Part shown: positions 51,038-54,009 of the stretch, one piece after another
Position numbering within the stretch: position 1 is the stretch's first letter
Layout of the letters: each line of letters starts with the position of its first letter
NCBI RefSeq assembly: GCF_030845195.1
Contig: NZ_CP132543.1
Location: 3,861,501 to 3,925,500, forward strand
Length of the DNA stretch: 64,000 nucleotides
Direction of reading: 5' to 3'
Source of the DNA: Sanyastnella coralliicola
GTDB lineage: Bacteria > Bacteroidota > Bacteroidia > Flavobacteriales_D > Sanyastnellaceae
The notes under the pieces: generated by a model
Told to the model about the DNA's origin: nothing
The model's database searches: none
Seen by the model: only the letters and a program-made list of their open reading frames with translations
Position numbers and translations under genes: made by a program

Positions 51038-52513
51038 ATGGAAACAAAAGAAATGACCTCCATCACCACATTAGGTGAACTCAAGAATAGCGGATACGTG
51101 AGTAAAACCGTTCGCGATGAAATGCGTGACAATCTCATTGTTCGACTTCGTAACAACGAGCGCGTATTTAGCGGTATTCAAGGATATGAGGAAAGCGTGA
51201 TCCCAGAGATTCAACGTGCAATATTGGCACGTCACAACATGAATTTACTCGGACTCCGCGGTCAGGCGAAAACGCGTTTAGCGCGCCAAATGACCGAACT
51301 ACTAGATGAGTACATTCCAGTATTGGCGAGCAGTGACTTGAACGAAGATCCGCTCACACCATTGACCACTAAGTCGCAAGCGGAAATCGCTGAAAAAGGC
51401 GATGAGACTCCGATTCGTTGGATGCATCGCAGTGAGCGATACGTAGAGAAGCTAGCAACACCCGACGTAACAGTAGCAGATTTGATTGGAGATGTTGATC
51501 CGATTAAAGCGGCTAACCTACGTCTCGATTACAGCGATGAGCGTGTGATTCACTTCGGATTGGTGCCACGTGCGCACCGATGCATTTTTGTGATTAACGA
51601 GCTACCTGATTTGCAGCCGCGTATTCAGGTGGCGCTCTTCAATATCCTTCAAGAAGGAGATATTCAGATTCGTGGATTCCAGTTGCGTTTGCCATTGGAT
51701 GTTCAGTTCGTGTTCACAGCGAACCCTGAAGATTACACGAATCGTGGGGCCATTATTACCCCATTGAAAGACCGTATTCAGTCGCAGATTCTGACGCATT
51801 ACCCGCGTTCATTAGATATTTCAAAGACGATTACCCAGCAAGAAGCGAAGATCAATGAGGCGCAGCGCGACGCTGTACAAGTGCTTCCATTGATGGAGGA
51901 TTTGGTGGAACAAGTTTCTTTCGAAGCGCGTGAATCTGAATTCATTGATCAGAAATCGGGGGTTTCAGCTCGATTGACAATTTCAGCTTTTGAAAATTTA
52001 GTCAGCACGGCTGAGTTGAGAGGATTGAAGAATGGTGATGCGAGCACGAAGGTTCGTGTTGCAGACCTGCTCGGGATTGTTCCTGCGGTCACAGGTAAAG
52101 TGGAATTGGTTTACGAAGGAGAACAAGAAGGACCACAAGGCGTAGCGCTGCATCTAGTCGGAAAGGCGATTCGAACGCGATTCCCTCAGTCTTTTCCTGA
52201 TCCTGAACTCGCTAAACGCGGAAAAATCGAAGATCCTTATGTGAAGATCACGGATTGGTTTTCTGTAAACCAACTGGAGATCATGCACTCTGATAGCGAC
52301 ATCGCCTATCAAGAGAAGCTACACATGATTGATGGTCTTGAAGAGGTAGTAGATCGCTATGTGCCTGATGCCGGTGAAAGCAAACTGCTATGGATGGAAT
52401 TCGTGCTTCACGGATTAGGTGAATACAGCCTGTTGAACAAGCACGTATTGGAGAATAAGGTCAGCTTCAGCGACCTTTTCAATAACCTATTCTCTCCAGG
52501 AGAAGAGGATTAA
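51038..52513 (+). CDS. MoxR/ChlI-like AAA ATPase
   Basis: A 491-residue AAA ATPase of the MoxR/magnesium-chelatase subunit I type. Walker A is GLRGQAKT (72-79); the Walker B position reads IFVINE (183-188), with Asn in place of the usual Asp before Glu; sensor 1 is in FTANPEDYT; an Arg-containing TPLKDRI follows. A C-terminal helical region of about 200 residues is unlike short MoxR proteins. It lies six bases after the VWA gene, so the two should form one complex. Its stop overlaps that of the convergent DUF3592 gene. No metal-cofactor pathway genes are nearby, so a chelatase role is not supported by context. Confidence 0.85.
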   Translation: METKEMTSITTLGELKNSGYVSKTVRDEMRDNLIVRLRNNERVFSGIQGYEESVIPEIQRAILARHNMNLLGLRGQAKTRLARQMTELLDEYIPVLASSDLNEDPLTPLTTKSQAEIAEKGDETPIRWMHRSERYVEKLATPDVTVADLIGDVDPIKAANLRLDYSDERVIHFGLVPRAHRCIFVINELPDLQPRIQVALFNILQEGDIQIRGFQLRLPLDVQFVFTANPEDYTNRGAIITPLKDRIQSQILTHYPRSLDISKTITQQEAKINEAQRDAVQVLPLMEDLVEQVSFEARESEFIDQKSGVSARLTISAFENLVSTAELRGLKNGDASTKVRVADLLGIVPAVTGKVELVYEGEQEGPQGVALHLVGKAIRTRFPQSFPDPELAKRGKIEDPYVKITDWFSVNQLEIMHSDSDIAYQEKLHMIDGLEEVVDRYVPDAGESKLLWMEFVLHGLGEYSLLNKHVLENKVSFSDLFNNLFSPGEED

Positions 52514-52842
52514 GACTTTTCAGGATATACGATTCGAACGGCCTTTGGGTCTTTCGGATCGTATTTCACTTCTACTTCCGTACCCACTGGATATTCAGGT
52601 TGACCCTCGCAGCGATCGTCGCTTGCATGCGTAATCTCCGTGCCTTCGTGATCAATGTATTTGATGATGGGCTTGTAGATGGTTTTCCCTTTTTGCTTCG
52701 CACTCATCCAGTTCACAATCACACCACGAACTTTTTTCGCTCGTCGATCAAAAAAAATGACAGGTCCGAGACGCCAAACGAGAATGGCCACTACGGCAAC
52801 AATACATAGAATGCTTAGGATCCACTTTACTTCTTCGCTCAT
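52510..52842 (-). CDS. DUF3592-like membrane protein
   Basis: A 110-residue protein with one N-terminal membrane span (about 5-28, WILSILCIVAVVAILVW) and a small beta-rich domain: VRGVIVNWMSAKQKGKTIYKPIIKYIDHEGTEI then YPVGTEVEVKYDPKDPKAVRIVYP. The V.G.I......k...y.P...y....G and YpvG..V.V.YdP.nP..a pattern is that of DUF3592 domains, whose function is unknown. The ATG at 52842 was preferred to 52866, because a TAGTACCTTG box lies just upstream. A terminator and a structured RNA region precede it by about 50 bases, so attenuation is possible. Confidence 0.75.
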   Translation of the reverse strand: MSEEVKWILSILCIVAVVAILVWRLGPVIFFDRRAKKVRGVIVNWMSAKQKGKTIYKPIIKYIDHEGTEITHASDDRCEGQPEYPVGTEVEVKYDPKDPKAVRIVYPEKS

Positions 52843-52891
52843 TATAATCTTCGATGCTTGGTGCAAGGTACTACATAGAACGCGGGGTGAA

Positions 52892-52922
52892 AAAGAAAGA
52901 GCTAACGCGTTCGTTAGCTCTT
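52892..52922 (-). terminator. terminator of the structured RNA
   Basis: Minus strand AAGAGCTAACG - AACG - CGTTAGCTCTT, an 11-pair stem followed by TCTTTTTC. No protein gene ends just upstream of it, so it must end a small RNA or act as an attenuator for the DUF3592 gene 50 bases on. Confidence 0.8.
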
Positions 52923-52936
52923 CCCAACCGAGTACA

Positions 52937-52981
52937 TTAGTAAACCAAAATCAATGTACGACTATGAAGTCGTCGTCTCAT
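52937..52981 (-). CDS. possible leader peptide of 14 residues
   Basis: ATG to TAA reads MRRRLHSRTLILVY, with four Arg in the first eight residues, lying across the two competing hairpins. The layout (Arg-rich mini-ORF, alternative stems, terminator, gene) recalls ribosome-mediated attenuation. No Shine-Dalgarno is seen, and the match may be chance. Confidence 0.3.
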   Translation of the reverse strand: MRRRLHSRTLILVY

Positions 52982-53064
52982 CGACGTCGATACCTGATAA
53001 ATGGATTATCAGTGTTTTCTGACATGGATTACGGGGTGTTTCCTTCAAAGTTTCAGGAGAGGGC

Positions 53065-53096
53065 AAAAAAAACAGGACAACCTTTCGATTGCCCTG
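53065..53096 (-). terminator. strong intrinsic terminator, minus strand
   Basis: Minus strand CAGGGCAATC - GAAA - GGTTGTCCTG, ten pairs with a GAAA tetraloop, followed by eight T. There is no protein gene upstream on this strand before recO, which runs the other way. Confidence 0.88.
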
Positions 53097-53186
53097 CCTA
53101 ACCTAACTTTAAACTATGTGCAAATGAATACTTACACTAGCACCTTGAATATTTTGAAAGCATGAAATGCCGTATGCTTCTGATTC
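53065..53186 (-). ncRNA. candidate small RNA ending at strong terminator
   Basis: An exact -7 box (minus-strand TACATTTG, 53187-53194) lies about 90 bases before the terminator at 53065-53096, so a transcript of about 110-120 bases is expected. No coding frame longer than a few codons is present. Function unknown; a -33 TTG at the normal distance was not found. Confidence 0.5.
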
Positions 53187-53292: not shown

Positions 53293-54009
53293 GTGAGAGC
53301 GATCGTCTTACATAGCATTCCGTACACAGACTCGAGTAGAATTGTGCGCATTTTTACCGAATCAAATGGTCTACGAGCCTATTTGGTTCGAGGCGTGGGG
53401 AAGAAAAGATCGTCTTCGAATGCGCTACTTCAGCCATTATCATTGGTTGAGATCACAGAACGTGAACGCAGTCGAGGTTCCCTGTATCAAATTGCAGAGC
53501 ACAAGCGCGCCGTGGTGCTTACTCACATGAGCATTGAGCCGTACAAAGGCATGTTGGCCATGTTTATGGCCGAGCTGGTTCAACACTGCATCGCTGAAGA
53601 CCACGCGCATCCTGAACTGTTTGATTACCTCTGGAATACAACTCAAATGATGGACATTGACGACCAGCCGGGTGTTTATGCCATCCTGTTAGCTGGCCGC
53701 TTGATGAAGTTTTTGGGGGTCATGCCTGATGAAATGCCACTGGGTTTCAAGCAAGAAGAAGGTTTTCTCGATTTGGCTTCTGGTCATTGGAGTTACCGTG
53801 CGCCCTTGCATAATGCCGTGATCGAAGGCCAATTAGGAAGTTATTTACGTAATAGCTGTGCTGAATCACCTGAGGCGTTTCGTAGGTATTCGCTAACGCG
53901 GAACGACCTGCGGTCTTTATTAGATGCTCAGGTAAAGTACCTTCAACTGCACATTAATGATCAAAGAGAATTGAAATCACTAGAGGTTTTACGCGAGGTC
54001 TTTGCGTGA
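53293..54009 (+). CDS. recO: DNA repair protein RecO
   Basis: A 238-residue protein of the RecFOR recombination-mediator pathway, which loads RecA on SSB-coated DNA. The N-terminal OB fold reads RAIVLHSIPYTDSSRIVRIFTESNGLRAYLVRGVGKK, the usual RecO opening; a helical domain follows (AELVQHCIAEDHAHPELFDYL). The start is GTG at 53293. A TTG, a 20-base gap and TATACCTG (about 53283-53290) just upstream form a modest promoter. The zinc-finger cysteines of some RecO proteins are absent. A copy of the recurrent motif lies near the 3' end. Confidence 0.9.
   Translation: MRAIVLHSIPYTDSSRIVRIFTESNGLRAYLVRGVGKKRSSSNALLQPLSLVEITERERSRGSLYQIAEHKRAVVLTHMSIEPYKGMLAMFMAELVQHCIAEDHAHPELFDYLWNTTQMMDIDDQPGVYAILLAGRLMKFLGVMPDEMPLGFKQEEGFLDLASGHWSYRAPLHNAVIEGQLGSYLRNSCAESPEAFRRYSLTRNDLRSLLDAQVKYLQLHINDQRELKSLEVLREVFA
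53891..53903 (+). repeat. recurrent motif, variant CGCTAACGCGGAA
   Basis: Inside recO, sense, read in a different frame from the other coding copies (SLTRN). Confidence 0.5.

Follow-up and report, generated by a model that had tools for sequence, protein, structure and literature searches.

A conserved small RNA gene of Sanyastnella coralliicola with a putative ECF-like promoter and a putative seed complementary to mRNA leaders

The window, a stretch of 64,000 nucleotides, is part of the Sanyastnella coralliicola genome (G000), a single contig of 4.1 Mb. Its minus strand carries two conserved RNA units in tandem between recO and a DUF3592 gene (Table 1), and both appeared as conserved blocks when minus-strand positions 53130-52870 were searched against 40 relatives. 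Unit 1 is the more strongly conserved RNA, has a terminator of its own and lies directly upstream of unit 2; it was absent from the initial annotation, which had described a structured RNA of about 150 nt from position 53040 in a stretch without a protein gene, with DUF3592 starting about 50 nt past the terminator. The missing protein gene and the position of DUF3592 (start at 52842) are as described, and the size is close, but a start near 53021 and a length of about 130 nt are likelier. Searches of the 64-kb window with Rfam 15 gave no match at the gathering score and nothing convincing at permissive thresholds; unit 2 had no match.

Table 1 Features of the two RNA units and their neighbours, in window positions
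Feature	Position	Strand	Description
recO, divergent neighbour of unit 1	53293..54009	+	PF11967/PF02565
sRNA unit 1	53065..53141	-	5' hairpin, invariant GUUUAAAGUUAGGUUAGGCAGGGC, terminator with U8; model R2 98.3 bits
ECF-sigma-like promoter TGAAAC-N15-CCGTA(AT)	53028..53055	-	-35 at 53055-53050, -10 at 53036-53028
sRNA unit 2	52890..53022	-	predicted ~130-nt transcript; probable start ~53020-53023, end in U-run
Unit 2 conserved core	52890..52960	-	loop AUUUUGGUUUAC, CUCGGUU linker, terminator; covariance models R1/R3
Mini-ORF MRRRLHSRTLILVY	52937..52981	-	14 codons; judged a chance frame
7-bp hairpin with conserved loop GAUUUUGGUUUACU, putative seed	52932..52959	-	94% of cells paired, 2 pairs changed on both sides
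Unit 2 intrinsic terminator	52897..52922	-	11/11 pairs, U-run; both-side changes at 10/11 pairs
Putative sigma-A-like -7 box TACCTTGC for DUF3592	52863..52870	-	sequence reading
DUF3592 gene	52510..52842	-	PF12158 5.4e-08; downstream neighbour, uncoupled from the RNA

The terminator arms of unit 2 (52897-52907/52912-52922) pair at all positions, and UUUCUUUUU comes next on the minus strand. Upstream lie the 7-bp hairpin stem (52932-38/52953-59), a 6-bp stem (52958-63/52968-73) that shares bases 52958-52959 with it, and a 7-bp stem at 52994-53000/53006-12. The four inverted repeats, the terminator and the two-base overlap that had been reported are all present; the 6-bp repeat at 52980-85/52986-91, however, has a loop of zero and a pairing probability of 0, and cannot fold into a hairpin. 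The whole span folds better than its dinucleotide shuffles (z = -5.35, none of 200 shuffles as good; z = -4.7 in a second run). The bulk of this signal comes from the terminator, and z is -2.0 for the span without it and -0.5 for the hairpin at 52932-52959 by itself. This 5' hairpin is only moderately stable, with a pairing probability of about 0.35 in the full transcript, and its covariation is slight.

The unit 2 core recurs in eight genomes from four genera of related marine and freshwater flavobacteria (G000, G001, G002, G003, G007, G069, G008 and G058), with 91-97 bits in G000 and G001 (models R1/R3) and 65-74 bits in the six others (R3). Its loop AUUUUGGUUUAC is nearly invariant across the four genera, while the flanks and the terminator stems diverge almost fully. 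Covariation with homologues, which had been proposed as a check, gave a score of 0.762 against 0.320 for shuffles and at most 0.220 for slid controls, with 96% of cells pairing and 12 of 18 pairs changed on both sides; since the alignment (A5) was fitted to the model structure, these figures lean towards that structure. The terminator sequence has changed almost completely in the eight genomes with pairing always kept, and terminators read by eye, apart from the model-fitted alignment, are near-perfect stems; the upstream hairpin has both-side changes at two pairs. The distance of unit 2 from unit 1 varies by genome (about 0.1, 0.5, 1.6 and 2.3 kb), and in genera g1 and g6 it lies only about 100 nt behind. 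The stretch encodes a previously undescribed, presumably regulatory small RNA and is mostly an RNA gene rather than a leader, and the proposal of a new small RNA is borne out by homologues in four genera, compensatory changes, a promoter-like element of its own and a conserved terminator. We are confident that unit 2 is a conserved, genuine RNA gene.

The promoter-like element occupies the gap that separates the unit 1 terminator from the first hairpin of unit 2. At promoter spacing upstream of unit 2, seven of the eight carriers have such an ECF-like element (TGTAACC/CGTAACC then C/GCGTA; TGWAAC). It reads TGTAACCCTTGTCAGACGATTCCGTA in G002 and TGTAACCCTTGTAAGACAATTCCCGTA in G007, a near-copy is found in G069, G001 has it as well, and G008 and G058 have CGTAACC-N-GGCGTA at a distance of about 200 nt from the core, on its upstream side; in G003 no ECF promoter was recognisable upstream of unit 2. 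Such elements are rare in the 1.26 Mb of G000 sequence examined (1.2 Mb of sampled stretches plus the window), and their intergenic copies mostly precede genes for signal-peptide or secreted proteins, lipoproteins or proteins with a T9SS tail (sorting domain). As read from the sequence, unit 2 has the ECF-type promoter expected of an ECF-sigma-dependent trans-acting sRNA, and its predicted 3' end is marked by a terminator conserved with covariation. The element makes an ECF sigma factor the candidate, and we consider it likely that unit 2 is an independent transcript, here a predicted one, driven by an ECF sigma factor. Another ECF-like promoter, around 16506 on the minus strand of L204 (G000:C1, about 2016506), precedes an ORF-free stretch of about 230 nt and a terminator, and may mark one more sRNA, which would overlap the end of the convergent gene.

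A different role had also been considered, that of a cis-acting leader in which translation of the Arg-rich mini-ORF would choose between competing hairpins and thereby attenuate DUF3592. The 14-codon frame exists and spans both overlapping stems, these stems split the pairing probability about evenly in folding calculations of the alternative states, and DUF3592 is the next gene in G000, G001 and G002. The mini-ORF and the competing stem (52958-63/52968-73) are, however, restricted to G000 and its near-identical sister species G001, and on this ground the competing-hairpin switch was rejected. Among the carriers, DUF3592 was seen directly behind unit 2 in genus g1. In G007 unit 2 is followed by a convergent gene and no DUF3592, and in G018 DUF3592 lies directly behind unit 1 without unit 2; because the two occur without each other, attenuation of DUF3592 is not supported. 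The gene also has a promoter-like box of its own, TACCTTGC, which was compared with the enriched leader words TACCTTT/CCTTTGC of this genome and with the SM5 motif TAnnTTGY of Flavobacterium psychrophilum (PMC9723704). Neither a conserved leader peptide nor a conserved downstream structural gene was found, as a ribosome-mediated attenuator would have, and we give this reading next to no probability.

The complement of the unit 2 loop core, AACCAAA, occurs 25 times in positions -40 to -1 of 947 leaders of G000, whose gene starts were called crudely, against 4.8 expected, and peaks at -20 to 0 (19 in this bin against about 2-3 per 20-nt bin elsewhere). It ranks top of its 21 permutations and is exceeded among all 7-mers only by words of the sigma-A -7 box; words containing ATG were discarded from the seed scan, as the start codon enriches them trivially. 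The second carrier examined, G002, gave 9 against 1.3 expected, again top of the 21 permutations. In G026, which lacks unit 2, the count was 4 against 2.3 and not top of the permutations; this sole non-carrier control belongs to another family and has a lower G+C content. Pairing of the loop with leaders beats 60 of 60 shuffled loops at both -11 and -10 kcal/mol, and the genome has 12 exact copies of TAAACCAAAA, of which two lie a short distance before the ATG of signal-peptide proteins. The enrichment is not confined to genes for secreted proteins. A-rich leaders are general in Bacteroidota, and AACCAAA might function by itself as a translation element. TTAACCA (9 in leaders against 0.85) suits the paralogues better than unit 2, and so does the leader consensus TTAACCAAA, a closer match to UUUGGUUAA of the paralogues than to UUUGGUUUA of unit 2. 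With the complement enriched at -20 to 0, pairing of the seed at the start codon region, as in FopS, is predicted, and we lean slightly towards unit 2 acting by pairing near start codons.

The paralogues form a wider group. Exact TTTTGGTTAAGGT sites number eight in the own genome, most of them directly before an intrinsic terminator; two follow a stop codon within a 3' UTR (L255, L256), and another (L257) is preceded by an ECF-like promoter. More broadly, a multi-copy UUUUGGUUAAGG motif immediately precedes intrinsic terminators, in some cases within a 3' UTR and in others stand-alone (L255-L258, L260-L262, L269, L283, L284 and L288). Tandem or multi-copy units carrying one to three UUUGGUUAA or AUUGGUUAA motifs also occur in other genera and in another family of the order, several of them behind the same promoter type as unit 2 (L049, L050, L138, L141, L143, L146, L150 and L154). 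Genus g9 has repeated UUUGGUUAA/AUUGGUUAA units with ECF-like promoters (L049, L050, L053, L138); an explanation of the repeated g9 matches as integron attC sites was rejected, the sequences reading as sRNA-like units with such promoters. In family f4 (L143) three tandem copies lie about 211 nt apart. Another recurring RNA, GUUCUCAUGUAGAGAUAUUUAGAUAGUUUAAUUGUUUUCAUUUAUU plus terminator, was seen in at least five genera (L286, L056, L060, L062, L068); its copy in G000 (G000:C1:3950333-3950413, L286) has the ECF-like promoter TGTAACC-N14-CCGTTA.

Covariance searches found unit 1 once in each of 25 genomes, which all belong to this family, G069 having one extra weak match; the sole matches elsewhere among 399 genomes of the order were two weak ones, and an exact 19-mer of unit 1 is found in 22 public genome records. 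Its invariant stretch measures 24 nt, and its 5' hairpin changes in sequence from GUGUAAG...UUUGCAC here to ACAUCGUCC-GAAA-GGGCGGUGU in G013 and CAUCACC...GGUGAUG in G010. In five relatives (L075, L076, L079, L080, L094) the next same-strand gene after unit 1 encodes a secreted QSPGGVSSGL... protein, and its leader holds (GC)CCUGUCUAACC(G/U)AAAC, which is predicted to pair with the invariant sequence at -24 to -29 kcal/mol. Unit 1 and this leader are a candidate sRNA-target pair, and their complementarity supports pairing as a general mode of action of these RNAs. No homologue of the secreted protein was found in the own genome, where leader enrichment of the unit 1 complement (CTAACCT and similar) was not clear.

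Unit 2 resembles FopS and GibS, two sRNAs of Bacteroides thetaiotaomicron, of which FopS is Rfam family RF04319 (BTncRNA_FopS; PMC11697453). All are short RNAs with a conserved U/G-rich seed upstream of an intrinsic terminator, relatives are multi-copy and some 3'-UTR-derived, an RRM protein is present, and the seeds target, in the case of unit 2 presumptively, the regions where translation of envelope-protein mRNAs begins. In our reading unit 2 shares its mode of action with FopS/GibS without belonging to their family: it has no Rfam match (unit 1 reaches 20.5 bits, E 1.8, against a gathering score of 56), an ECF-like rather than a sigma-A promoter, and comes from another order. The FopS layout of a single-stranded 5' seed (R1) with the terminator directly behind it was not found in unit 2, whose 5' part is structured and whose motif sits in a hairpin loop; the paralogues L255-L262 look closer to it. 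In F. psychrophilum the sRNA Rfp11 is expressed, along with T9SS genes, from a sigma-ECF motif (SM6) that has CGT in its -10 box (PMC9723704), and the combination of a CGT-type -10 box with an sRNA alongside T9SS and envelope genes recalls unit 2; Rfp11, which has no known target, was likened to unit 2 by description and not by sequence. Rfp18 of the same species, predicted to pair via its third stem-loop and needed for full metalloprotease mRNA levels, which its deletion lowers (PMC9723704), likewise resembles unit 2, by description rather than sequence, as an sRNA conserved in flavobacteria and connected with secreted proteins. A similar logic is known in enterobacteria. There, MicA, RybB and MicL are sigma-E-dependent sRNAs that silence envelope-protein mRNAs under an envelope-stress sigma factor; they differ from unit 2 in their unrelated sequences, their dependence on Hfq and hosts with Shine-Dalgarno sites.

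Taken as a mechanism, an ECF sigma factor probably makes unit 2 from the element behind unit 1, and transcription would stop at the intrinsic terminator to give the RNA of about 130 nt. AUUUUGGUUUAC, in the hairpin loop or single-stranded, would then most likely pair with (U)AACCAAA immediately upstream of start codons and prevent translation from starting on a group of mRNAs, among them those of secreted and outer-membrane proteins; pairing there would block initiation because, in Bacteroidota, Shine-Dalgarno sites are missing and the initiation regions are A-rich. The probable outcome is that unit 2, paired to the bases just ahead of their start codons, turns envelope-protein messages off. 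It would act as the RNA branch of a sigma regulon concerned with the envelope and may belong functionally with the multi-copy UUUUGGUUAAGG-plus-terminator RNAs of the same genome. We consider this picture of an ECF-driven, trans-acting, FopS/GibS-like repressor of envelope and secreted-protein mRNAs moderately probable. Its extension to the Flavobacteriales, in which ECF-driven and 3'-UTR-derived UUUGGUU(A/U)A RNAs, unit 2 among them, would jointly silence a genome-wide class of messages that share UUAACCAAA just ahead of the start codon, is tentative and on balance doubtful.

The same motif could instead be a protein site: UUUUGGUUUA of unit 2 would bind an RRM protein, as in the case of RbpB, so that the RNA acts as a sponge or is stabilised without any leader pairing. 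The genome encodes one RRM_1 protein, the UUUUGGUUAAGG copies L255 and L256 follow stop codons immediately, inside 3' UTRs, where a protein site would be expected, and RbpB binds single-stranded parts of FopS (PMC11697453). Protein binding by itself gives no account of the clustering of AACCAAA, the exact complement, right before the start codons of carrier genomes, and we find it rather unlikely as the whole explanation; it is compatible with leader pairing. Still simpler would be a strong terminator for read-through from unit 1 with neutral sequence upstream, in line with the terminator's share of the folding signal and with the short spacing in g1 and g6. The near-invariance of AUUUUGGUUUAC between diverging flanks and terminator stems, and a unit 2 that lies as much as 2.3 kb from unit 1 behind a promoter-like element of its own, make this very unlikely.

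Control by pairing of an ECF-driven RNA with leaders is our preferred reading. To our knowledge, post-transcriptional control in Bacteroidota is poorly known outside gut Bacteroides, and the phylum has neither Shine-Dalgarno sites nor, as far as we know, classical RNA chaperones. Two conserved sRNA families, together with a candidate sigma class and a candidate leader motif, would allow a direct test of how sRNAs locate their targets in such bacteria, and the leader motif offers a route to genome-wide target prediction. If true, a shared anti-leader code would be the counterpart of Shine-Dalgarno-targeting sRNAs elsewhere, and unit 2 would give an RNA arm for the control of envelope and secretion in abundant aquatic flavobacteria.
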